A stretch of DNA of 64,000 nt from Pseudomonadota bacterium (lineage in GTDB: Bacteria > Pseudomonadota > Gammaproteobacteria > Burkholderiales > Rhodocyclaceae), in contig JAGTRT010000002.1 of assembly GCA_018261895.1 (NCBI GenBank), positions 62,001 through 126,000 on the forward strand, written 5' to 3'. A program made the translations under genes and the position numbers. The notes under the pieces were generated by a model, which was not told the DNA's origin, searched no databases, and saw nothing but the letters and a program-made list of their open reading frames with translations. This document shows, one piece after another, positions 5,376 to 64,000 of this stretch. The first letter of the stretch is position 1. Each line of letters opens with the position of its first letter.

Positions 5376-6380
5376 ATGACCGGGGTTGGTAACAAATCCG
5401 TTACGCATGTCATCATCAGTGACGAAGAGGCTGGGCAACGACTGGACAACTACCTGATCCGGTGCTGCAAGGGGGTTCCCAAGAGCCATATATACCGGAT
5501 TTTGCGTAGCGGTGAGGTACGGGTAAATCGCGGCCGCGTGGATGCGACTTATCGACTGTGTGTCGGCGACGATGTGCGTATTCCGCCCATGCGCATCGCT
5601 GAACGACCGCAGAACGAGGTCGATGAGGCCGCCAAGACCCGTGTCGATCTTCCGGTTATCTATGAAGACGAGGCAATGCTCGTCATCGACAAGCCGGAGG
5701 GCATTGCCGTCCATGGTGGCAGCGGCGTCAGTTTTGGCGTGATCGAGGCCTTGCGCCGACAACGACCACAAGCCAAGTTCCTCGAATTGGCCCACCGACT
5801 GGATCGGGAAACATCGGGCGTGTTGCTGGTGGGCAAGAAGCGCCTGGCGTTGACCGCATTGCACGACATGTTCCGGGAGCACGGAGCGGGCGCCGACAAG
5901 CGCTATCTGGTGCTGGTCCAAGGCCGCTGGATGAACAACACCCAGCACGTCAAATTGCCTTTGCACAAATACTTGACGGAAAGCGGCGAGCGGCGTGTGT
6001 CGGTCAGTCCCGACGGCAAGGCATCGCATACCGTATTCAGATTGCTCGCCCGCTGGTCAGACGTGAGCTTGCTGGAAGCTCAATTGAAAACAGGTCGAAC
6101 CCACCAGATTCGCGTGCATCTGGCGCATCTCGGATTTCCCATTCTGGGCGACGAGAAATATGGCGATTTCGCGCTGAACAAATCACTCAAGCGTGAAGGC
6201 TTCAAACGCATGGCGCTGCATGCCTGGCGGATCGCATTTCGTCATCCACTGACTGCCGCACCGCTGGAATGCATCGCCCCGCTGCCGGACAGCATCGAAA
6301 GCTACATTGTTACGGTCAACCGGAAAAAAGACCCAGAATTCAAATCGGAAAATCTGGAAGAAATATTGAGCAGAAAATGA
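5376..6380 (+). CDS. rluC: 23S rRNA pseudouridine synthase, RluC type
   Basis: Makes pseudouridine in 23S rRNA (positions 955/2504/2580 in E. coli for RluC). Residues about 17-75 are an S4 RNA-binding domain (GQRLDNYLIR, YRILRSGEVRVNRGR). The RluA-type catalytic core contains HRLDRETSG with catalytic Asp143, and the conserved KTGRTHQIRVHLAHLGFPILGD block follows. It lies beside rne as in other Proteobacteria, which supports RluC over RluD/RluA. 334 residues. The C-terminal tail is atypical: codons 313-324 (TVNRKKDPEFKS) come from a copy of the dispersed 34-bp repeat. The TGA overlaps the next ATG by 4 nt. There is no clear ribosome binding site at the start. Confidence 0.92.
   Translation: MTGVGNKSVTHVIISDEEAGQRLDNYLIRCCKGVPKSHIYRILRSGEVRVNRGRVDATYRLCVGDDVRIPPMRIAERPQNEVDEAAKTRVDLPVIYEDEAMLVIDKPEGIAVHGGSGVSFGVIEALRRQRPQAKFLELAHRLDRETSGVLLVGKKRLALTALHDMFREHGAGADKRYLVLVQGRWMNNTQHVKLPLHKYLTESGERRVSVSPDGKASHTVFRLLARWSDVSLLEAQLKTGRTHQIRVHLAHLGFPILGDEKYGDFALNKSLKREGFKRMALHAWRIAFRHPLTAAPLECIAPLPDSIESYIVTVNRKKDPEFKSENLEEILSRK
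6312..6346 (+). repeat. Dispersed 34-bp repeat, copy 1 (in rluC)
   Basis: Begins with ACGGTCAACCGGAAA, identical in five copies in this window, followed by an A-rich, then CCCAGAATTCAAAT-like second half. It supplies in-frame codons for the rluC C-terminal tail (TVNRKK). The upstream context CATTGTT resembles that of copy 2. Confidence 0.85.
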
Positions 6381-9031: not shown

Positions 9032-9612
9032 TAGAGAACCGCCACACCCTGGTTACGCAACATTTCGCACAGTGCGATCAACGGCAATCCCACCAATGCA
9101 TTCGGATCTTCGCCCCGCATGCCAGTCAATAGAGCGATGCCCAGACCTTCAGATTTTGCGGAGCCTGCACAGTTGTAGGCTGGCTCACGGCGCAGATAGT
9201 TTTCAATTTCCGAGTCACTCAATTGCCTGAAGGTGACCAAGGTAGGAACGCCCTTAAGCTGGGCCTCGCCGGTAGCCGTATTCAATAAACACAATCCCGT
9301 AAAGAAATTGACGGTTTTGCCTGAAAGCTCACGTAACTGGGCCACGGCACGATCGTGGGTTCCCGGTTTTCCATAGATTTTGCCGTCGACCGTTGCAACC
9401 TGATCGCTACCGATAATCAGTGCTTCCGGAAACTGCGAGGCGACAGCCCTGGCCTTCGCCTCGGATAGTCTAAGCGCCATATCTTCGGGCTGTTCGCCAG
9501 GAAGCGGGCTTTCATCTGTTTGGGGGTTGGCAATATCAAAGGGAAGACCCAGGCGGCCTAGTAACTCCCTGCGGAATGGCGATGTTGAAGCAAGAACCAG
9601 TTTCTGTTGCAT
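9031..9612 (-). CDS. yceF: Maf-family nucleoside triphosphate pyrophosphatase, YceF type
   Basis: Hydrolyses modified or excess nucleotides (m7GTP for E. coli YceF) to the monophosphate. The start at 9612 gives [18 protein letters not shown], the canonical Maf N-terminus; a frame open 28 codons further upstream is AT-rich and not family-like. The catalytic aspartate is in GSDQVA, and IYGKPG and [13 protein letters not shown] are conserved. 193 residues. Divergent from yceD-rpmF-plsX, the classical order next to the fatty-acid genes. Confidence 0.93.
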
Positions 9613-15784: not shown

Positions 15785-16225
15785 GTGCAGTTTCCGATCA
15801 TCATCGGAGTGCACCGTTCGCGTTTTCTGGATGCCCTGCTGGTGTTGCTTGCATTGCTGGCGGTATCGGCAATCCTGGCTTTCCATTGTCCGCAGAGCAT
15901 TCGTGCCGGCTTGCTGATACTTGTCCTGCTGCTGACGAGTCTGGCATGGCGAGGACTGACGCCGACCCTCAGGTCAATCCGGCTGGAGCGTAGCGGGGAA
16001 ATTCTGGTTGCACGGATCATCGGAGAAACGGATTTCGTACCGGCGCTACCCAGGCCCGGGGCGACCATTCACCCCTGGTTGATGGTCATCACGCTGGACC
16101 TGGCCGATGGGCGACCGGCAACGCTCATTCTTACGGTCAACCGGAAAAATAGCCAAAATTTGAAATGCTTGCGCGTATTCATGCGCTGGCAGGCGAAATT
16201 TACCGAGTCTGGCGACGCCGCCTGA
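15785..16225 (+). CDS. Small membrane protein, YgfX/CptA-like
   Basis: A 146-residue protein with two adjacent hydrophobic helices (about residues 16-34 and 40-57), then a soluble domain ending in LRVFMRWQ. The layout and position resemble YgfX-type proteins, a cytoplasmic-membrane family of poorly defined role; assignment is moderate. Codons 117-128 ([12 protein letters not shown]) are a copy of the dispersed repeat, replacing what in relatives is usually a variable stretch before the RLRV-like motif. The last 26 bp overlap the convergent end of nadB. Confidence 0.6.
16133..16167 (+). repeat. Dispersed 34-bp repeat, copy 2
   Basis: ACGGTCAACCGGAAA followed by AATAGCCAAAATTTGAAAT. It lies in frame within the YgfX-like gene and encodes TVNRK, as copy 1 does. 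Confidence 0.85.
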
Positions 16226-18551: not shown

Positions 18552-18986
18552 ATGAATACTGAACAAACCACGGTTCGCGCGATCGTTCGAAGCCTGGAGG
18601 GCAGCAGTGCCCACGTTGAAGTCGAGCATGGTGGCTGCGGGCGCTGTCACGAAAAAGGGGGGTGTGGCGGACAACAACTGACGCAGATGTTTTGTGCCGG
18701 ACCAAAGACATTCCATGTAGAAAACGACATCGGTGCTGACGTTGGCGATCGAGTCGTGATCGCCATTGCCCCTGGTAGCGTTAGCCGGATTGCGAATTTT
18801 GCCTATATTTTCCCGTTGACCGTAACAATCGTCGGCGGTGTTCTGGGAGCCTCGTTCGGCGGGGATCTGAATGCAATGATCGGCGCCGGTATCGGTCTTT
18901 GCGCTTCATTCCTGTATGTGATCATCCGCTCTCACAGCAATATTGGAAATCTTTCCGAGCGTCCCCATATCATTTCCCGTTCCTGA
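18552..18986 (+). CDS. rseC: RseC/MucC-type positive regulator of sigma-E
   Basis: A 144-residue inner-membrane protein with an N-terminal cysteine cluster (Cys29, Cys32, Cys38, Cys48 in CGRCHEKGGCGG and FCAG) and two membrane helices at about residues 78-98 and 103-118. RseC homologues also take part in reducing SoxR, through an Rnf-like route. It follows rpoE by 2 bp and is probably cotranscribed with it. A diverged copy of the dispersed repeat lies on the opposite strand of the first membrane helix without disturbing it. Confidence 0.85.
   Translation: MNTEQTTVRAIVRSLEGSSAHVEVEHGGCGRCHEKGGCGGQQLTQMFCAGPKTFHVENDIGADVGDRVVIAIAPGSVSRIANFAYIFPLTVTIVGGVLGASFGGDLNAMIGAGIGLCASFLYVIIRSHSNIGNLSERPHIISRS
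18789..18823 (-). repeat. Dispersed repeat, diverged copy in rseC
   Basis: On the minus strand: ACGGTCAAC, one mismatch, GGAAAA, then CAAAATTCGCAAT. By hand count 28 of 34 positions agree with copy 4 when one base gap is allowed. The host gene reads FPLTV here, the same register as FRLTV in copies 3 and 5. Confidence 0.55.
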
Positions 18987-26720: not shown

Positions 26721-27094
26721 TCTACGGAATCGGCACCGATATCGTTGCCGTGGCGCGTCTGCGCAGCATGTGGGAACGCCATGGTGACCGGGCACTCGAC
26801 CGCCTGCTGGCACCCTCGGAGAGGGCGGGTTTCGCCAGCGCCGCCGACAAAGGCCGTTTTCTGGCTAAGCGTTTCGCCGCCAAAGAGGCTTTCAGCAAGG
26901 CTTTGGGCACCGGCGTCCGTCCGCCCGCCACACTGTCCGCAATTGCCGTCGGCCACGACGAATTGGGCAAGCCCGAACTGCAATTTCACGGTCAACTGGA
27001 AAAAATGCTCAAAATCAAAAACCTTCGAGCGCATCTCTCGATCAGCGACGAAGCCGATTACGCCATCGCCTACGTCATCCTGGAGCAAGCATGA
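26717..27094 (+). CDS. acpS: Holo-ACP synthase
   Basis: Transfers 4'-phosphopantetheine from CoA to apo-ACP (the acpP product at 14.2 kb). 125 residues. Mg-binding motif [12 protein letters not shown] with Asp8, and the second site [20 protein letters not shown] diverged copy of the dispersed repeat runs through codons of the [12 protein letters not shown] stretch without breaking the frame. Four-base overlaps with pdxJ and nagZ. Confidence 0.95.
26988..27021 (+). repeat. Dispersed repeat, diverged copy in acpS
   Basis: ACGGTCAAC, one mismatch, GGAAAAAA, then TGCTCAAAATCAAAAA. By hand count 28 of 34 positions agree with copy 4. It is read in a different frame (HGQLEK) from copies 1 and 2. 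Confidence 0.5.
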
Positions 27095-40687: not shown

Positions 40688-43600
40688 CCGGTAAGCACGA
40701 CGACCTGATGCTCGCCGAGGTCATCGACGAGCGTGATGGCATCGCCCAATTGCTCAATATCATCGACGACTAGACTGTGCTGCCCGCCCGCAATACGGGA
40801 CACGGCGATCTGATAGACCGTGGCGCGATAACGGTAGCGCATCCGGAATCCGGGCCAATCTGCAGGCAGACAGGGTGAAAGATGGAGTTGGTCGCCTGCC
40901 AGACGCAGGCCGAGCAGGGATTCGACGAGCAGCCGGTACATCCAGCCCGCCGAGCCGGTATACCAGGTCCATCCACCGCGACCGGTATGCGGTGCCAGGG
41001 CGTAGATATCGGCGGCCATCACATAGGGCTCGGCCTTGTAGGTCTCGATGGCCGCGATGGCCGCGATGGCGCGCGTGTGGTTGATCGGGTTGATCATCGC
41101 CGCCAGTTCCCAGGCCCGTTCGTGGTCGTCGAGCGCAGCAAAGGCCATCGCCGCCCAGATCGCCCCGTGGGTGTATTGGCCGCCGTTTTCCCGCACGCCC
41201 GGCACATAGCCGCGGATATAGCCAGGATCGAGCCGGGATTTGTCGAAAGGCGGGTCGAGCAGCTGGATCAGGCCGGCCTGCCGCCGCACCGAGCGGCGTG
41301 CCGTCGTCGAAATAGGCGCGACGATACCAGGCGCCGTCCCAGCCCTCCTCCTCGATGTGCTGATGGAGGCGGGCGGCCTCGCCCAGACAGAATTCGGCAA
41401 AGGCCGGATCGCCATGATGGGTCGCCACGCCGCTGAACTGCCTGAGCACTTCATGCAGGAAGAAGCCGAGCCAGACGCTCTCGCCCTGCCCCGCGATTCC
41501 GACGCGGCTCAGGCCATCGTTCCAGTCGCCGGAGCCGATGAGCGGCAGGCCGTGCACACCGAAACGCAGGCCGTGGCGGATGGCCCGGATGCAATGCTCA
41601 TAGAGGCTGGCCACTTCGCCCGAGCGCACCGGCAGGTCGTAATAGGAGTCGTCTTCCGGATTGACCGGGCGGCCTTCAAGGAAATGCATGCTTTCGTCGA
41701 GCACGCCGGTATCGCCGGTGGTCTGCACGTAGCGGCAGACGGCCAGCGGCAGCCACAGGGCATCGTCCGAACAGCGGGTGCGAACGCCGCGACCTGAGGG
41801 CGGATGCCACCAGTGCTGGACATCGCCCTCGGCAAACTGGCGACCGGCGCAGAGCAGCAAATGGGCGCGGACCAGCGCCGGTTCGGTATGCACCAGCGCC
41901 ATCATGTCCTGCAACTGATCGCGGAAGCCGAAGGCGCCACCCGACTGGTAGTAGCCACTGCGCGCCCAGACCCGGCAGGCCAGCGTTTGATAGACCAGCC
42001 AGCCATTGGCCAGCACATCGAGCGCCGGATCAGGCGTCTCGACGTGCACGGCACCGAGCGTGTGCGCCCAGTACTGACCGACCGTTTCGAGCGCCATGTG
42101 CGCCGCCAGCGGGCCGCGGAAGCGCTGGACCAGATGTTCGGCATCTTCGGTATCGCGACCGACGCCGAGGCGGAAGATGATTTCGCGATCTTCGTCTTCA
42201 TCCAGATCGACGATGACCTGAATGGCACCGCAGGGGTCGAGGCCGGCGCCGACCTTGCCGGAAAGGCGAGCCCGCTTGAGCGCCGATGGTTCGCCCGGAG
42301 AACCGTTGCGGCCGATGAATTCGTTACGGTCACCGGTCACCGTACGGCTCGCTTCATCGACATCGAAGAAGACAACGCGTCCGGAAAACTCGGGACCATA
42401 GGGATTTCGCGCCAGTAGCGCGCCGCTGCCCGCCGCGACCTCGGTTGTCACGTGCATGGCCGTTTTGGCCCGCAAATCGCCGAGAACCCACTCAACATAG
42501 CCCGTCGCCGAGATCTTGCGCGGTCTACCGGAAATATTGGCCAATTTCAAAATCGAGAATTTGACCGATGCGTCGATGGCGACAAAGACCTTGAGCTCGG
42601 AACGGATGCCGCCGACAGCGGTTTCAAAGGTCGTGACGCCGAAGCCGTGGCGTACCGTGTAGGGCATGGCGCCGCGCACCGGCAAGGGCGTCGGCGACCA
42701 GACGTGGCCGGTTTCATCATCGCGCAGGTAGATCGCTTCGCCGCCACCATCGCTGACCGGGTCGTTGTGCCACGGCGTCAGGCGGAATTCGTGGGCGTTC
42801 TCGCTCCAGGTGTAGGCGCTGCCGCTTTCGGAAATCACCGTGCCGAAATTCGGGTTGGCCAGGACGTTGGCCCAAGGTGCCGGGGTGGTGTGGCCGGCGC
42901 CCAGCGTGATGACGTATTCCCGGCCATCTGCAGTAAAGCCGCCCAGGCCGTTGTAGAACTGCAGATCGACGCCGTTCACGGTCGCTGCCGGCGGTGCTTC
43001 GGGGCGATAGCGCCGACTGGCCACGAGGCGCGGCACGCGTGATTCGGGCGGGCTGCGCAGGTCGAGCTGCTCGGCCAGCGTGCCCCGGCAATCGGTGATC
43101 ACGGCACGCGCGACCGATTGCAGCAGGATGCGGTCTTCGCTCGAAATCTGTTCGGCCAGCCGCACGAAAATACCGCCCGGCCGGTCGATGACGCTGGCCT
43201 CGATGCCCGAGGCGATGAGTCCCATGATCTGATCCTGCAAGCGCTGGCGGTAGCCGGCGTGGTCCTCGTTCCAGATCACCAGATCGACGACCAGCCCTTT
43301 CAGGCGCCAGTAAGCGTGGGCCTGCACCAACTGGCGGACGAGATCGATATTGGCCGCATCGCCGATCTGTAAAAGCACGATGGGCAAGTCGCCGGAAATG
43401 GCATAGCCCCAAAGGCCGGACTGGCCGCGCTGGTTGCGGATGAGCACCGAGGCATCGGCACGCAGCGAGGCGTGGGCGTGGATGACCGAACCGGCCAGGC
43501 GGGCATAAAGCTGGGCGTCGGCCTCGGTGGCGTTGAGCTGGCGGAGGACGACCTGGCTGTGCGTCCAGGTCAGTTCGAAAACACGGTCGGCCAGGTGCCG

Positions 43601-46600
43601 GTCCTGGTATTTCTCGACCAGGCCGAGCGCCGTGGTGCGGGTTTCGGCAATGCCGGTCACCACATCGATGGTCACAGATTGCTCGGGTTCGAGCACGATG
43701 CGATGGCGAATGGCGACGATGGGATCGAGCACCGACCCGTCGGTATCAGACAGTTTGCCGGCTTCATCCATGGCCAGCGGCCGGGCTGCGCTGCGGGTAC
43801 GGCCAATGAAGCGGGCGCGGTCGGTTTCGCAGGAAACGGCACCTGACACGGCGTCATGAACCGCCATCAGGTGCAGCATCCATGGCGCCTGCTCGGTCAG
43901 CGACCGCGGTCGTCGGGTGCACAGCACGGCATTTCGCCCGTGCAGGATTTCACTCTGCACGAACAGCTTGCTGAAAGCCGGGTGCAGTTCGTCGGCGGCC
44001 GATGGCGCGATGACCACCTCGGCGTAACTCGTCACCTCGATTTCGCGGCGCTGGCGCGAGCGGTTGGTGATGCGGGTGCGGCGCAGTTCGATATCGTCCT
44101 CGGGCGAGACGACGATGTCGGTGTAGGTTTCGAACTCCCCTTCCCCGCCGTCGAGCGAATCGCGGCGGCGGAATTCGGCGCGCCCTTCGGAGAAGATCGC
44201 CTCGTAATGATCGGGGCGTTTGAGCGTCGGCTGGTAGGCGGTGGACCACACGGTACCGCTGGCCAGTTCGCGGATGTAGCAGAAGCTGCCCCAGTTGTCG
44301 CGGGTGCCGTCCTCGCGCCAGCGCGTCACGGCCAGATCGTTCCAGCGACTGTAGCCGCCGCCAGCATTGGTCACCATGACGTGGTAGCGGCCGTTCGACA
44401 GCAACTGGACTTCGGGCACCGGCGTATCCGGGGTGGTGAAGACGCGGATCGGCGTTTCGTCGACGGTCGAGGCCGAACGCGCGTCGGCCAGTTCGGCCGT
44501 GTGCGAGAACAGGGTCGTGGCCTTCGGGATACGTTCCTGCAGCAGCAACAGGATGGCCTGGAACAGCCGGTCGGCGACAAAACGCCGCTGCATGGGCTGA
44601 TTGAGCAGCAGGTAGTCGAGCGCCAGCAGGCTCATGCCCTGATGGTGGGCCATGAAGGAGCGGACGACGACATGCGACTGGCCGCGCCGCTGGCGGGCCG
44701 GTGTGTAATCGATGGACTCGAAGAAGCCGTATTTGCCGACGAAGCCTTCGTCGGCCATGCGCTGCAGGTTGAGGCAGGCCGCTTCCGGCGCCACCATGAG
44801 GGCCATTGCCGAGGCATAGGGCGCGATGACCAGATCTTCGGCCAGCCCGCGCTTGAGGCCCAGGCCCGGCACACCAAAGGCGCGGTACTGGTAGTTGAGA
44901 TGCAGATCGACCGTGTTGTAGCCCGATTCGGATACGCCCCACGGCACGCCGCGCTGCTTGCCGTACTCGATCTGCCGCGCCACGGCCGCCTTGCAGGTCT
45001 GGTCGAGCAAGGTGTTGTCGTAATTGGGCATGACCAGCATGGGCATCAGGTACTCGAACATCGAGCCGCTCCACGACAGCAGCGCCGGTTCGCCGCCGGT
45101 GCCGGTGAGCAGGCGGCCGAGCGAGAACCAGCTTTCCTGCGGTAGTTGCCCCTGGGCGATGGCGACGAAATTGCACAGCCGGGCTTCGGAGGCGAGCAGG
45201 TCGTAGTAACTGGTATCGACGCGGCGCTCGCCGACGTTGTAGCCGATGGTCAGCAGGTGGCGCGCCTTGTCGAACAGGAAGTCGTAATCCATCTGCGCCA
45301 GTTCGGCGGATTGCTCGGCCAGTGCGTCGATCAGGGCGATGCGCTGCGTGGCGACATGGCCGGCCTGCACGATCTGGTGAGATAGTTCGATCAGCCATTG
45401 GCGTTGCTCGGCGCTCAAGTCCATCGCCTGGTGTGCCTCGATATCCGGGCAGCGTTCGGTGGCCAGTCGGGCCAGGCCGCGCAGTGTCGGCATGGCCGCC
45501 TCGTTGGCGATCCGGGCGAATACTTCCAGACCGTCCGGCGCAGGCGGCATGCTCAACCAGGGGGCCAGATGTTCGAGTTCGGTCTGCGCTTCGGCCAGTT
45601 GTTGAACGAGCGCCCTGGCCCAATCGGCGGCCTCGTTTTCCGGCATGCTTTCATCGACCACGACTAGGCTGGCTTCAACCTCGCTCAGCAATTCTTCGGC
45701 AACCTGGCCCAATTGGCGAAGCAGCCGGGCCATGGCCGAAATGCTTGGCGGCGGAATCAGCATGGCCGTGTCGAGCAGCTTGCGCAAGGCGCCCAGCGTA
45801 CCGGCCACGGCCTCATCGGCGCTTTCATCGAGCAGGCCGAGCGTGTCGTTGAGGCCGGCCAGCAAGCGGGGCTGCAGGATCGGCGCATCGGCCAGTTCGA
45901 GCAGGCCACCGCGCAGGGTCAGCAGATGCCCGGCCAGGTTGCCGCTGTCGACTGTCGAGATGTAGAGCAGCGGCAGCGGTTGCAGGGTCTGCGTGTCGTA
46001 CCAGTTGTAGAAGTGGCCGCGGTAACGCTCCAGACCGACCATGGTGCGCAGGGTGTTGGCGGTGCGTTCGATCAGTTTTCCGGTCGGGATGTAGCCGAAA
46101 TCCCAGGCGCTCAGGTTGGCCAGCAAGGCCAGGCCCATATTGGTCGGCGAGGTACGGTGGGCGATGGCGGCGACCCGGTATTCCTGGTAATTGTCCGGCG
46201 CCAGCCAGTGGTCGTCCGGCCCGGCGAAATGGTCGAAAAAGGCCCAGGTACGGCGGGCGATGCGGCGCAGGAAAAAGCCCTGCTCGGCCGTCAGATGCGC
46301 CTTGTGGGCGGTCAGCGGACGGCTGAGCCACCAGGCCATGAGCGGCGAGGCCAGCCAGAGCAGGAGGACCGGCGCCGCGATGAACATTTGTTCCGGACCG
46401 GCGAACACCAGCCAGGCCCCCAGCGCCATGGCCAGCAGCGGGCCGATCCACATGCTGCGCAGGCAGGCGACCAGTTCGCCACGGCGTCGCCCGGCCATCT
46501 GCCGTTCGACTTCGCTCGACGGGTTCCATTCGAGCAGGCGGCGATGCGAGACGAGCAGGCGCCAGGCGGTACGGGCAATGGCATCGAGGCTGAAGAACGC

Positions 46601-49366
46601 TTCGTAGGGCAGACAGGCCAGCTCGAAACCGAGCTGCTTGAAATGGCGCCAGGCCGAGCCGGCTACGGCGGCCAGATGCTGGCGGAGCAGGATTTCATCG
46701 GGTTTGCGGCAGGCGTCGAGCAAGGCGGCGAAAATCGGCGGCACGATGAGGATGCCGAGGATAGAGGCGGTCCACCACGCCACCGGCGCGAGCACCGTCC
46801 AGCCAAGGATGAGCAGCAGGCTCAGGGCAGCCGGGACGAGGCTGCGCCGCAGGTTGTCGATGAGCTTCCATTGCGACAGCCTCGACAGCGGATTGATGTG
46901 CCGGCACATGCCCTCGCCCGGCACCTTGCCGAACAGCCAGCCGGCCAGTTGCCAGTCGCCGCGCAGCCAGCGGTGCCGGCGGATGACGTCGGCCCGGTAG
47001 CTGGCCGGGCAATCTTCGTAGAGCTGCACGTCGCTGAGCAGGCCGGCCCGGGCGTAGCAGCCTTCGAGCAGGTCGTGGCTGAGAATGCGGTTTTCCGGGA
47101 AACAGCCGCCGAGGGCGCGTTCGAAGGCGGCGACGTCGTAGATGCCCTTGCCGATGAAGGAGCCTTCGCCGAAGACATCCTGATAAACGTCCGAGACGGC
47201 GCGGGTGTAGGGGTCGATGCCGGGTTCGCCGCCGTAAAGCCGGGCGAGCAAGGACCGGTTGGTGCCCGGCAGGCTGACTGCGACGCGCGGCTGCAGGATG
47301 CCGTAGCCGCTGACGACGCGCTGCAGCGTGTCGTCGAAAGTCGGGCGGTTGAGCGGATGCGCCATGGTCCCAACGAACTGGCGCGCCGTATCGCGCGGCA
47401 ACTGGGTGTCGGTGTCGAGCGTGATGACATAGCGCGTGTCGGCCAGTGCCGTGGTGTCGCCGGCGATCAGCGAGAAGCCCTCGAGCGTGCCGTTCATGAG
47501 CAAGGCGTTGAGGTCAGCCAGCTTGCCGCGCTTGCGTTCGTAGCCCATCCACACGCGTTCCTGCGGATTCCAGCGGCGCGGGCGGTGGAACAGGAAAAAG
47601 ATGCTTCCCGCTGGCGGCTGGGCAGCGTCTCCCACGGTCAACCGGAAATTTTGCCCAAATTTGAAATTCAGTTCGTCGATCTTTTCGGCCGCCAGTTGCA
47701 TGAGGGCGGCGTCTTCGGGCTGTGTTTCCTGGCCGGCGTCGAGAAAATCGGTGAGCAACGCGAAGTGCAGGTTGGGGTCGCGATTGGCCAGGAAGCGGAC
47801 TTCCAGCGCCTCGATCAGGCTGTCGATGCCGGCCGTGCTGGTCAGCATGGTGGGCACGACGACCAGCGTTCGCGAATCGGGCGGGATGCCTTTGGAGAAA
47901 TCCAGCTTTGGCAGGGGATGCGGCGCAACGAGCAGGCTGGCCAGCCAGTTCACCAGCGAGACAGCCAACTGGCTGGTGGCCAGCAGCACGACGAGACCGA
48001 GCAGGATCATCGCCCACAGCGGCAGGCCGACGGGCAGCGCACGCATGAGCAGACTGGCCGCCAACAGGCCGGCGATGGCGGTGACGCCGCCGAGGTAGAG
48101 GGTCAGCGGCATACGGCTGGCCGCCCGGCGCACGCTCTCGGGGAAGGCGTGGCGAACGTCGACGACGCTTTCGAGCTGCGCCAGGCCGGGACCGATCAGG
48201 TAGAAGCCGACGTGGGCAGCCGGACCGCCCTCCCCGGCCAGCACGGCACTGCGCGCCAGTTCGACGACACGGGCAGCGAGCAGCCCTTCGGACAGGTCGC
48301 TCTTGCGGGCGATGGCTTCGGTGGCATGGCGATAGCGGTCGCGCGTTGCGAAATCCATCGCGCCATAGACGCCGCCCGGGTCGCCGAGCAGGGTCTGCTC
48401 GACGATGCTCTGCGTTTCGACAAAGGTCTGCCAGTCCATGGCGCCGATGACGCGCAGGCTGCCGATGCTGTTGCTGATCGACACCTGGTCGGCGGCCTGC
48501 AGCTGATTTTCGGTTTGGACCATCTGGCCGATGGTCAGGCCGGACTCGGCCAGGTGTTGCTCGATCCAGGTCAGCGGCAAGGCCAGGGCCGGACCACGGC
48601 CCTGCAGGCGGCGCACCAGTTCGGCGACGAAGGCGCTGACCATGGGTGGCTTGGAGCGTGCCATGTCGGCGATGACGAGAATCAGGCTTTTCGGATCGTG
48701 CTCGGCGGCGTCGATCATCCGGTCGGCCCAGACCTCGGCCAGAATGCGCTCGTCCCAGCCGGCGGCGACGCGCACGCCAACCCGACGGAGGTTTTCGATG
48801 ACGGCCAGACGCAGCATGATGGGGATCGCCCACAACTCGCCGAGACGCAGGTCGGTGACCGTCTGGTAGGCCGCGACGAAACGGCTCAGCGTTTCCGGAT
48901 CGACCCGTCCGTCACCGTGCGCCACCGTTTCCAGCGCAATGTCGTAGACGCGCGGATGCCCGGCCGAGGCACCGCTGGCCAGGCGCGGCAATTCGCGGCT
49001 GTAGCCTTTGGGCAGGTGGCGCTTGGCGGTACGGATCTGTTCCTCGATGAGGTAAAAATTGTCGAGCAGCCACTCGCCGGCCGGCGTGATCCGGCGCTTT
49101 TCCGTGGCGACGGCAGTCAGTCGGCGACAGACATCGACCAGCGACTTTTCGTTGGCGGCCAAGCGGCCGAGCAGGCGGTCGCTGACGGTGCCGGCAGCGA
49201 GCCGGTGCGCCGCCGCCAGCGCCTTGCCGTGCTGGGCCATCTGGTCGGCGCTGTACAGGGCAGCGCGCAACGGCGCTTCCTCAGTGGGCTGAACGCCCCA
49301 TTCGGTATCGCAACGATCGTTGACCTGCCGGCGCAGGAACGCCAGGAGCTGATTGCCGGGTATCAA
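40684..49366 (-). CDS. Cyclic beta-glucan synthase-like protein (NdvB type), frameshifted near the 3' end
   Basis: A giant membrane glycosyltransferase/glucan-processing protein, about 2,870 codons. In order: an N-terminal helical domain, membrane helices near residues 415-480, a GT84 transferase domain (DTDTQLPRD near 653, HRWLRGDWQ near 797), further membrane helices, a glycoamylase-like domain (SFMAHHQGMS near 1570) and GH94 phosphorylase-like domains. The frame from 49366 follows the family to about 41290 (RRAYFDDGTPLG). It then loses similarity and ends at 40760. The expected C-terminus (AGLIQLLDPPFDK, GYVPGVRENGGQYTHGAIW, GGWTWYTGSAGW) is in another frame, 41285-40684. Some 40 family residues between the two parts are missing. 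Either a deletion mutation or a sequence error; if real, the GH94 C-terminus is lost. Confidence 0.85.
42520..42553 (+). repeat. Dispersed repeat, diverged copy in the glucan synthase gene
   Basis: GCGGTCTACCGGAAAT followed by ATTGGCCAATTTCAAAA. By hand count 26 of 34 positions agree with copy 3. On the coding strand it is read as KLANISGRPR, a conserved GH94-region motif. Weakest member of the set. Confidence 0.35.
47634..47668 (+). repeat. Dispersed 34-bp repeat, copy 3 (in the glucan synthase gene)
   Basis: ACGGTCAACCGGAAA followed by TTTTGCCCAAATTTGAAAT. It lies antisense to the gene, which reads KFGQNFRLTVG, apparently in a variable loop before the FFLFHR motif. The preceding TCCC context is shared with copy 4. 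Confidence 0.85.
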
Positions 49367-49806: not shown

Positions 49807-49942
49807 GATTTTCTCTCCGGATAGCGGGAAAGCGTATTTCCCGATCAAGCTTCAAGGCCTGAGCAGCAAAGCGTAGTCAGCCTGCATGGCTGCGTCCGTG
49901 TGCTGGAGCACATAGCCGCCTTGCCCGCTGAGGGCGAATCCC

Positions 49943-49977
49943 ACGGTCAACCGGAAAAAAGGCCCAAATTCGAAATA
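49943..49977 (+). repeat. Dispersed 34-bp repeat, copy 4 (intergenic)
   Basis: ACGGTCAACCGGAAA followed by AAAGGCCCAAATTCGAAAT; used here as the reference copy. It is the only copy outside an annotated gene, between the BON lipoprotein and the GGDEF-EAL protein. On the minus strand it lies in an open frame without start codon that reads FEFGPFFRLTVGFAL and ends at 49852. Confidence 0.88.
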
Positions 49978-59200: not shown

Positions 59201-60341
59201 GCCGGGCCCCGCCGGGATGCTCATGCAGAACGGGGTCTTCTGGCGCCGTCAGGCCCTGCAGGATATGGCGATAGGCCTCGGCAAACGAGCGGACGCCGTC
59301 GAGTTGCAGGCTTTCGCCCACCCGGTTGAGATCGATGCCCAGCGCCAGCAATGCCTGGATGTGGTGCCGGGCGTCTTCCAGCCCTTCCTGCAGGGTATCG
59401 GCGGCCAGCCCGTGGTTCCGGAATGCGGCCAGCGTGGTCTCGGGCATGGTGTTGATGCTGCCCAGACCGATCAGCGGCTCGACGTAAATCAGGTCGCTGT
59501 ACGCCGGGTTCTTGCTGCCGGTGCTCGCCCAGAGCGGCGTCTGCGGTCGAATGCCGGCCAGACGCAGGAGCGCGAAATCAGGCCCCTGGAAAACCTCCCG
59601 ATAGCGGCCATGGCAACATTTGGCCAGGGCGATTCCGGTTCGCCCGCAGAGACGGGCGGCATGCAGGGTACCCAGATCGGTCAGGAAGGTATCGACCGCG
59701 GTATCGACGCGGCTCAGGAAAATGCTGGCCACTGAGCGCAGGTGCCGCGCCTGGCCGCCGCTTTCGAGCCAGCGCATGGCGCCGAGCAGATAGCTCTGGA
59801 GTACGGCTTCGTATTGTTCGAGCGAAAAGATCAGGGTGACGTTCACGGAGATGCCTTCGACGGTCAACCGGAAAAAAGCCTCAATTCCGGAATCCGTGGC
59901 GGGCACCTTGATCAGGACATTGTCGCAACCGACCTGGCGATACAGCCGGCGAGCCGCGACGACGGTCGCGTCGGCATCGTTGGCCAGGGCCGGTGAGACT
60001 TCCAGGCTGACATAGCCAACCTCGCCCCGGCTTTCCCGGAAAGCCGGCAGCAACATGGCGCAGGCTGCCCGGATGTCGGCGATGACCAGCGATTCGTAGC
60101 AGGCCTCGGCATCCAGCCCGGCGCTGCGCAGCCGTTCCAGATCCTCGCGGTAGTAAGTGCCGTTGGCGATGGCTTTCTCGAAAATCGCCGGATTCGAGGT
60201 CACGCCATCGACGCCATCCTCGTTGATGAGGCGTTGCAGGCCGCCTTCACGCAGCAGCGTGCGCGACAGGTTGTCGAGCCAGATGTGCTGGCCGATGGCC
60301 TTGAGTGCGAGCAAGGGGTTGGTGCTGACGGACTTTTTCAT
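59184..60341 (-). CDS. tal: Transaldolase
   Basis: A pentose phosphate enzyme interconverting sedoheptulose-7-P/glyceraldehyde-3-P and erythrose-4-P/fructose-6-P. 385 residues, the long form. The Schiff-base Lys is in [11 protein letters not shown]. Conserved pieces: [51 protein letters not shown] copy of the dispersed repeat encodes FFRLTVEG, replacing residues of the usual IRRLIAEG-type helix without changing length. The start (60341) overlaps the phosphoketolase stop as ATGA. Confidence 0.93.
59860..59895 (+). repeat. Dispersed 34-bp repeat, copy 5 (in tal)
   Basis: ACGGTCAACCGGAAA followed by AAAGCCTCAATTCCGGAAT. Antisense to tal, which reads [11 protein letters not shown] through it. 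The first 15 bases are identical to copies 1-4; the second half is the most diverged of the strong copies. Confidence 0.82.
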
Positions 60342-63060: not shown

Positions 63061-64000
63061 GCTCCCAGTCTGGAACGCGGTTTGAAGGAATTGAACTGCT
63101 CGGCCATGCCGGCGTAGAAGACCTTGTCGGCGTCGCTTTCAGCCGTTGGCAAAACCACCTGCAAGACCACGTAAAGATCGCCCGGCGTGTTACCCGGAAT
63201 GCCTTTGCCCTTGAGCCGCAGCTTGCCGCCGGATTTCGAATTTGGCGGAATTTTCAGGTTGACCGTGAGATTCGGCGTCGGCACGTCGAGCGTCGTGCCG
63301 AGGGCCGCCTCCCATGGCGCCAGCGGCAGGTCGAGAAAGACATCGCGCTGTTCGACCCGGAAATGGGCATGTGGATTGAACGCGACTTCCAGATAGAGAT
63401 CGCCGGCCTTGCCCTGACCGATTCCCGGCGCGCCCTGCCCGGCCAGACGGATGTGCTGCCCGGCACGAACCCCGCGCGGAATGGTGACGTTGAGCTGATG
63501 CGAGCGCATTTTCACGCGACCGTTGGCGTCCACCTCGGGCGTGCCAAGCGTGATGATCCGGGAGGCGCCGCTATAGGCGTCGGCCAGATCGATCATGACC
63601 TGCGCGTGCCGATCCTCGCCGCGCGAATGAAACGCCGCCTGTTCCCGGCCACCACCAGCGAAACCACGCCCATACAGGGACTCGAAAAAATCGCTGAAAT
63701 CTTCGGCCCCCTTGCCATTGGCCCCATTGCCGGAGAACTCGAATCCGGCGTTCCAGTCCGGTGGTGGCCGGAAATCCTGTCCGGCCTGCCAGTTGGCGCC
63801 GAGCCGGTCGTAAGCGGCGCGCTTTTCGATGTCCTTGAGCACCGCATTGGCCTCGCCCAGTTCCTTGAAGCGCGCCTCGGCCGCCGGATCCTTGCTGACA
63901 TCGGGATGGTATTTGCGCGCCAGCTGCCGATAGGCACGCTTGATCTCGTCCTGGGTCGCATCGCGTGCCACCCCCATGATCGTGTAGTAGTCCTTGAATT
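63057..64000 (-). CDS. cbpA: DnaJ-class co-chaperone CbpA, start just outside window
   Basis: A curved-DNA-binding J-domain co-chaperone working with DnaK in stationary phase. The frame is open to the edge and reads FKDYYTIMGVARDATQDEIK, so only the first one or two codons appear to be missing. J domain with HPD in ARKYHPDVSKD, a Gly/Phe-poor linker (FSDFFESLYGRGF), then two C-terminal beta domains (INVTI-type QLNVTIPRGVRAGQHIRL, DLYLEVAFNPH, LRLKGKGIPG). No zinc finger, as expected for CbpA. Upstream gene of the operon cbpA-cbpM-xfp-tal. Confidence 0.94.
   Translation of the reverse strand, partial: FKDYYTIMGVARDATQDEIKRAYRQLARKYHPDVSKDPAAEARFKELGEANAVLKDIEKRAAYDRLGANWQAGQDFRPPPDWNAGFEFSGNGANGKGAEDFSDFFESLYGRGFAGGGREQAAFHSRGEDRHAQVMIDLADAYSGASRIITLGTPEVDANGRVKMRSHQLNVTIPRGVRAGQHIRLAGQGAPGIGQGKAGDLYLEVAFNPHAHFRVEQRDVFLDLPLAPWEAALGTTLDVPTPNLTVNLKIPPNSKSGGKLRLKGKGIPGNTPGDLYVVLQVVLPTAESDADKVFYAGMAEQFNSFKPRSRLGA
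63233..63266 (-). repeat. Dispersed repeat, diverged copy in cbpA
   Basis: On the minus strand: ACGGTCAACC, one mismatch, GAAAA, five different bases, then CCAAATTCGAAAT. By hand count 28 of 34 positions agree with copy 4 without gaps. The gene reads TVNLKIPPNSKS, in the same frame as TVNRK in copies 1 and 2. Confidence 0.5.

Follow-up and report, generated by a model that had tools for sequence, protein, structure and literature searches.

The window, i.e. the whole stretch of 64 kb that was analysed, carries a dispersed repeat whose 15-base core, ACGGTCAACCGGAAA, occurs exactly and on the plus strand at 6312, 16133, 47634, 49943 and 59860, as the first-pass annotation had reported. The five strong copies counted there are the exact ones; with up to two mismatches to the 15-mer the window holds nine places (Table 1), where 100 dinucleotide shuffles gave 0.09 on average and never more than 2, and the uniform plus orientation holds for the exact copies but not for the one-mismatch copies at 18823 and 63266, which lie on the minus strand. 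Regarding the location of four of the five copies in genes, three are found in recognisable ones, encoding a transaldolase (59860), a pseudouridine synthase (6312) and a GH94-type protein (47634), and the copy at 16133 lies in an ORF without a Pfam match; the site at 49943 is in effect intergenic, its sole overlap being with a very short called ORF. The window also contains, at 40763-49366 on the minus strand, an ORF of 2868 amino acids with a TTG start and two motif copies inside, for which two GH94 supersandwich domains, one GH94 catalytic domain and one glucoamylase-type domain were identified, and which we take to be a cyclic-beta-glucan-synthase-like giant.

Table 1. Copies of the motif in the 64-kb window
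Feature	Position	Strand	Context	Score
Motif copy, core exact	6308..6345	+	pseudouridine synthase ORF, close to 3' end	51.4
Motif copy, core exact	16129..16166	+	ORF without Pfam match	58.4
Motif copy, 1 core mismatch	18790..18827	-	RseC/MucC-type gene	34.2
Motif copy, 1 core mismatch	26984..27021	+	holo-ACP-synthase-type (ACPS) gene	54.4
Motif copy, 2 core mismatches	42516..42553	+	GH94-type gene, opposite strand	40.0
Motif copy, core exact	47630..47667	+	GH94-type gene, opposite strand	62.6
Motif copy, core exact	49939..49976	+	in effect intergenic; the copy first described	64.1
Motif copy, core exact	59856..59893	+	transaldolase gene, opposite strand	44.3
Motif copy, 1 core mismatch	63233..63270	-	DnaJ-type gene	53.3

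The genome to which the window belongs (G000; an assembly of 3,299,370 bases in 93 contigs, 85% complete) contains 362 exact 15-mers, 171 forward and 191 reverse, and 510 copies with at most one mismatch, whereas the reversed-letter control gave none. Thus, the outcome that was to speak against the repeat, namely a 15-mer without genome-wide excess or restricted to the copies of the window, was not what the genome search returned. The repeat, described at first as of about 34 bp, proved to be a unit of approximately 38 bp, extending over positions -4 to +33 and composed of T-Y-Y-C, then ACGGTCAACCGGAAA, and then A/T tracts spaced about one helical turn apart. Its anatomy was derived from 441 kb (the window and 377 kb of further stretches of G000), in which 47 exact sites had enough flank, and their information reaches well past the 15 letters used for the selection: T at -4 in 47/47 (and in 96/97 exact copies of 819 kb), a pyrimidine at -3 in 43/47 and at -2 in 46/47, positions +15..+17 restricted to A or T, G-S-C-C prevailing at +19..+22, AAA(A/T)T at +23..+27 and GAAAT at +29..+33; in the outer flanks there is only a weak signal, at -7..-5 and at isolated positions. 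By the weight matrix, 74 places in the 441 kb score at least 5, the lowest of them not below 11, and the reversed sequence yields none; the unfiltered scan of the same 441 kb gave 18 sites with a single core mismatch, of which none falls on the core positions 0-5 (ACGGTC).

A larger scan of 819 kb, or 25% of the genome, gave 140 sites, 97 of them exact, a lower bound as CGGTC was demanded as a prefilter; for the same reason it is uninformative on mutations in CGGTC, a point that rests on the unfiltered 441-kb scan. Counted by the seeded 15-mer, the 819 kb hold 97 exact, 30 one-mismatch and 12 two-mismatch copies. The triplets at +15..+17 are AAA 64, TTT 20, ATT 5, AAT 5, TAA 2 and TTC 1, so that the TpA step is absent from 94 of the 96 A/T-only triplets, against 65% expected from the columns. 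The centres of the tracts at 12-17 and 23-27 are separated by 10.5 bp and a third tract, at 30-33, follows 6.5 bp further, a layout which appears to match the look of phased A-tracts; given this spacing of the first two and the avoidance of TpA, both would be expected to lie on the same helix face as A-tracts with a narrow groove. Inverted arms are absent from the aligned sites, the sole internal symmetry being CGGT..ACCG within the core, so the inverted-repeat architecture of REP/BIME elements is missing. The near-palindrome CGGTCGACCG, suggested at first as a possible binding feature, does not look constrained, as in the dialect of the relative G182 the bases that complete it vary. At positions -4..-1 the 97 exact sites most often read TTTG (23), TCTC (21), TCCC (17) and TTTC (11), with G at -1 mostly after TTT, and these forms look like linked sub-types.

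The sites are placed along the genome unevenly with respect to genes, and with respect to one another more evenly than by chance. According to the gene calls of a simple script of our own, not of a published gene finder, 56 of the 140 sites lie in called genes and 25 at their edges, the other 59 being intergenic (random places: 87%, 5% and 7%), so that 84/140 are outside genes or at edges compared with 12.5% for random places. The in-gene sites are divided equally between the orientations (28 and 28), each orientation having a preferred frame. The coefficient of variation of the spacing is 0.72, against 0.96 for uniform and 1.04 for coding-state-matched placement, with 0 of 500 as low in either; gaps below 1 kb make up 6.6%, compared with 17% and 23% in the two random placements, and the density is about one site per 5.8 kb. 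Close inverted pairs are represented by one case among the 140 sites. A non-random orientation, which had been looked for, was found neither in G000 as a whole nor on the one-contig chromosome of the relative G191, where the 59 sites in 20 stretches, taken every 175 kb, comprised 26 plus and 33 minus; both strands were represented in 13 stretches, a single strand in six and neither in one, and the two halves counted 13/18 and 13/15 (plus/minus), i.e. without the strand polarity along replichores of the KOPS or Chi type. A polar chromosome motif had been considered because 13 places of G191 among the matches listed were all plus, and was rejected after the chromosome sampling had found minus sites in the same region.

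Among the genomes sampled, high copy numbers are confined to a part of one genus. The exact 15-mer matched in 7/150 genomes of the family, with more than seven copies in G000 alone. When at most one mismatch was allowed, eight of 60 genomes of the genus held at least 193 copies (G151 563, G200 535, G199 522, G000 510, G203 462, G202 453, G191 372 and G152 193), four were intermediate with 34-99 (G182 99, G154 70, G165 48 and G185 34), and the others had 0-25. With at most three mismatches allowed, the 34-base pattern occurred in 11/297 family genomes, outside the genus just as single copies, and the looser pattern of core plus tracts in 22/297, of which the 11 from other genera have one or two copies apiece; in the order, 6/250 genomes had it, with no more than one copy outside the genus. 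Thus, more than two core-plus-tracts copies were found in one genus only, presumably Azonexus, among the 297 family and 250 order genomes sampled; the low-copy genomes under this pattern are G112, G157, G147, G179 and G062. Single full-length copies were noted in genomes of three other family genera at G012:C68:10142, G038:C15:6060 and G125:C130:44447; these may have been transferred from the motif-rich genus or lie on contigs that are contaminants. In the species-genome collection, which may omit records near the window's own genome, one strict 34-base form gave 67 stretches in ten assemblies, whose titles name Azonexus, Dechloromonas, Azonexaceae or Rhodocyclaceae, or give no more than Beta-, Gamma- or Proteobacteria bacterium. 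A phage origin was also considered; in the scan of the viral collection a single contig, L305 (IMGVR_UViG_3300029891_000082), carried the motif at 9386-9412. In the tree of rpoB DNA, which covers 27/30 genomes (no rpoB match in G152, G199 and G154), the six motif-rich genomes present form one clade (100/100), next to G112 with its 25 copies (93/94).

Relatives of G000 carry the dialects GCTGCGGTCRAC and AGCGGTCGAC, with similarly placed tracts. In 400 kb of G182 the words that rank highest for over-representation (the first two 9-mers and the first 11-mer) take the form of GCTGCGGTC(G/A)AC, although an unrelated GGGCTC repeat also ranks high, and in 200 kb of G187 they take that of (A)GCGGTCGAC, with weaker scores than in G182. 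The alignment of 48 G182 sites on CGGTC placed the A/T tracts at +11..+16, +22..+26 and +29..+32, just where G000 has them, and that of 30 G187 sites gave weaker tracts at about +13..+16 and +23..+27; clade-specific dialects with the conserved inner core CGGTC are therefore seen, with the weaker signal in G187. No motif signal was obtained from 200 kb of G195, only weakly over-represented words such as CGGTTCGCT. The genomes G147, G157, G179 and G062 have 15-30 copies each of such forms as CGGTCGACCGTAAAAA (G147) and CGGTCGACCGCAA(A/T)AA (G157), which are probably further dialects, incompletely seen since the search pattern was built for other ones.

Comparison of orthologous places bears on how the sites arise and change. 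The site at 59860 is present in G151, G199 and G200, and G195 has ordinary sequence there, ungapped; at 49943 the core and tracts are kept in the same three genomes (one core mismatch in G199) with flanks 68-73% identical, and degenerate versions of the site at 47634 stand at the same place in them. Of 27 orthologue alignments of G000 sites, 14 were scored as gapped without a site, although on inspection by eye the gaps of several (47634, 49943, two on C5, and C83) lie in the flanks of a site and two align poorly (C10:270 and C21:4727); eight more were scored as ungapped without a site, of which five are against G195 but represent three distinct sites, two of them weak, with CGGTCTAC, and two G182 rows and others are dialect forms. 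A gap of 17 bases falls within the site at C11:40342 when it is aligned with G195. For 41 G182 sites aligned to related sequence, 14 alignments passed. Against motif-bearing relatives, CGGTCRAC is kept in 11/12 of them, ten of these ungapped, the 12 representing nine distinct sites, some in genes where protein constraint may help; in seven of the 11 the upstream CTG is replaced by CCA or CTA, and in four it is kept. Against G195, CGGTCRAC is kept in 0/2. Orthologous sites would thus change their dialect mainly by substitution, as far as these few sites go. As sites are shared with G182, the motif family predates the G000 dialect, and a single gain of the motif in the G000 clade was discarded, only the dialect being clade-specific.

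Genes for natural transformation were identified. Among ten genomes tested, comEC and dprA were present in 10/10 and comEA exceeded the cut-off in 8/10. All three are encoded in G000, together with a minor-pilin operon for GspH/FimT-type, N-methyl, PilW, PilX and PilY1 proteins and a ComP_DUS-family pilin, and all three are present in G195 despite its lack of a motif signal, which may reflect uptake without sequence preference, or a loss. In the motif-rich G191, no ComEA was found over the cut-off, though comEC and dprA are there. The ComP_DUS pilin family was considered as a marker of motif-rich species and rejected, since it occurs in 20/20 genomes of the genus, motif-rich and motif-poor alike. 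The globular part of the G000 member is not basic (6 K+R, 6 D+E, pI 6.7), and by charge counts none of five pilus proteins stands out as the receptor.

Taken as a whole, the sequence evidence points to a candidate DNA uptake sequence, a reading to which we assign a probability of about four in five. Hallmarks of such sequences, as published, include the lack of polarity, even spacing, preference for non-coding DNA and an excess of perfect copies (PMC1626085). In G000 and its relatives, over-representation, perfect-copy excess (97 versus 30), no orientation bias, regular spacing, non-coding preference with many in-gene copies, dialects, and competence and type IV pilus genes are all found. What counts against this reading is the ComEA score of G191, the competence genes of G195 without a motif signal, a ComP_DUS pilin that does not stand out as the receptor, a density below that of the uptake signal sequences (USS) and DNA uptake sequences (DUS) described, the equal in-gene orientations, and the small number of sites, one with the 17-base gap, behind an origin by substitution, which is a further property of uptake sequences. 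The explanations listed in the first-pass annotation ranged from protein-binding sites with a role in the nucleoid, in segregation or in uptake to what is left of a mobile unit; of these, it is the uptake signal that is strongly, if indirectly, supported, the segregation signal and the mobile unit being disfavoured.

In the mechanism proposed, a surface DNA receptor, most likely a minor pilin of the type IV pilus, would bind the motif during natural transformation, contacting the asymmetric core (CGGTCRAC with the dialect bases on both sides) and the downstream A/T tracts, which could help to bend the DNA for entry; the reader of the motif would be one of the pilins of the G000 operon or another surface protein. 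DNA that is tagged would be taken up more often, and tagged alleles would replace untagged ones by homologous recombination, an uptake drive able to build hundreds of near-perfect, evenly spaced copies through point mutation. With a drift of the receptor specificity the sites would change in concert, giving rise to the dialects of species. Receptor binding, preferential uptake and the drive are the inferred parts of this mechanism.

The motif resembles the USS of Pasteurellaceae in form and the DUS of Neisseriaceae in dialects, and is a member of neither family as defined. The USS types are the Hin-type AAGTGCGGT and the Apl-type ACAAGCGGT(C) (PMC1626085), and the same paper describes a core followed 3' by two A/T segments about a helical turn apart with As before Ts, perfect-copy excess, regular spacing, non-coding preference and subclade-specific types, all as in the Azonexus motif. 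The Apl-type 10-mer ACAAGCGGTC (PMC1626085) shares AGCGGTC with the G187 dialect, seven letters that are oriented alike with respect to the tracts, and GCGGTC with that of G182. However, the Azonexus motif is longer (38 bp), with a longer core and a first tract that starts farther from CGGT, has an approximately sixfold lower density and belongs to a different bacterial order; in place of the 9-bp USS core ANNNGCGGT the G000 core is ACGGTCAACCGGAAA, and GCGGT(C) is shared in other dialects alone. USS and DUS occur about once per kb (PMC1626085), and in both families one orientation is commoner in reading frames (PMC2346458), unlike the equal numbers here. The dialects of Neisseriaceae DUS, whose receptor is ComP, follow the phylogeny with a conserved short inner core (PMC3630211), as the dialects here track the species tree and have an inner core common to all, in hosts with type IV pilus minor pilins, one of the ComP_DUS family. 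The Neisseria DUS, described in PMC1626085 as of 10-12 bp and without flanking motifs, differs from a 38-bp motif with A/T tracts, also in the inner core (CTG against CGGTC), without letter similarity being seen; inverted pairs are rare here, and the ComP-family pilin is not diagnostic. It is unlikely that the Azonexus motif and the USS use the same solution, an (A)GCGGTC-type core with downstream A-tracts, owing to a receptor inherited or transferred between the lineages or to convergence. The letters common to ACAAGCGGTC and the G187 dialect AGCGGTCGAC may be shared by chance, for which the rough estimate, based on matches of seven letters between cores of 10-11 letters and with several dialects allowed for, is about one in a hundred.

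Three other explanations were weighed against the uptake sequence. A binding site of an intracellular genome-organising protein (for nucleoid, segregation, replication or recombination; KOPS-, Chi-, matS- or SlmA-like), with a specificity drifting between species, is improbable: a long asymmetric motif with phased A-tracts would suit a DNA-bending protein, and the even spacing and non-coding preference would fit a chromosome-wide architectural role, but the lack of polarity in the G191 chromosome is contrary to KOPS or Chi and so disfavours a segregation signal, and the occurrence of sites in 19/20 of its stretches is contrary to a terminus-only mark. Perfect copies that outnumber the one-off ones are also untypical of the sites of regulatory proteins (PMC1626085), and a high copy number confined to some species of one genus, with a turnover of dialects, is unexpected for an essential function.

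We also consider it very improbable that the copies go back to a small mobile or REP-like element, multiplied perhaps via a transposase acting in trans; the variation tolerated in the tracts is of A for T without TpA. Such an element would account for hundreds of near-identical dispersed copies, many of them intergenic, and for the gaps in or next to the site in 14/27 orthologue alignments, several of which are flank gaps. Nevertheless, there are no inverted arms, no sequence is shared beyond the motif except the weak upstream signal, the copies are evenly spaced, and the dialects hold the positions of the tracts as the core letters change; most clean alignments between species have no gap in the site, as at 59860 against G195, where the differences are substitutions, and in 10 of the 11 core-keeping dialect alignments, although the cases are few and one has the 17-base gap. 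That the motif is a transcription terminator or another 3'-end regulatory element is scarcely credible, with 56/140 sites inside genes, half in each orientation, no hairpin formed by the single motif, and just one close inverted pair in the whole set, despite the 25/82 non-genic sites between convergent genes (18% of the intergenic bases) and the depletion of divergent, promoter-containing gaps (9/82 versus 25%).

The uptake sequence, if the preferred reading is true, would constitute a third system beside those of Pasteurellaceae and Neisseriaceae, probably independent of them, in an environmental genus, i.e. a replicate of the evolution of uptake specificity, and would suggest sequence-biased gene exchange in this genus. 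According to a 2025 paper, which also reports protein-DNA models for PpdA/ComN, these two families are the only ones known to discriminate their own from foreign DNA at uptake (PMC12616744). In the open-access literature without preprints, no report of uptake sequences in this group or of the core strings was found among the matches listed, which is not a proof of absence. The dialects, the low-copy genomes and G195, with competence genes and without a motif signal, make the origin, change and loss of uptake sequences addressable, and the same comparison could show which features a receptor needs. Within the G000 sample, the longest stretch devoid of sites is the first 31 kb of contig C11, which starts with rpoB and presumably continues with rpoC, elongation factors and ribosomal proteins; since it covers the rpoB region, the motif may avoid very constrained operons.
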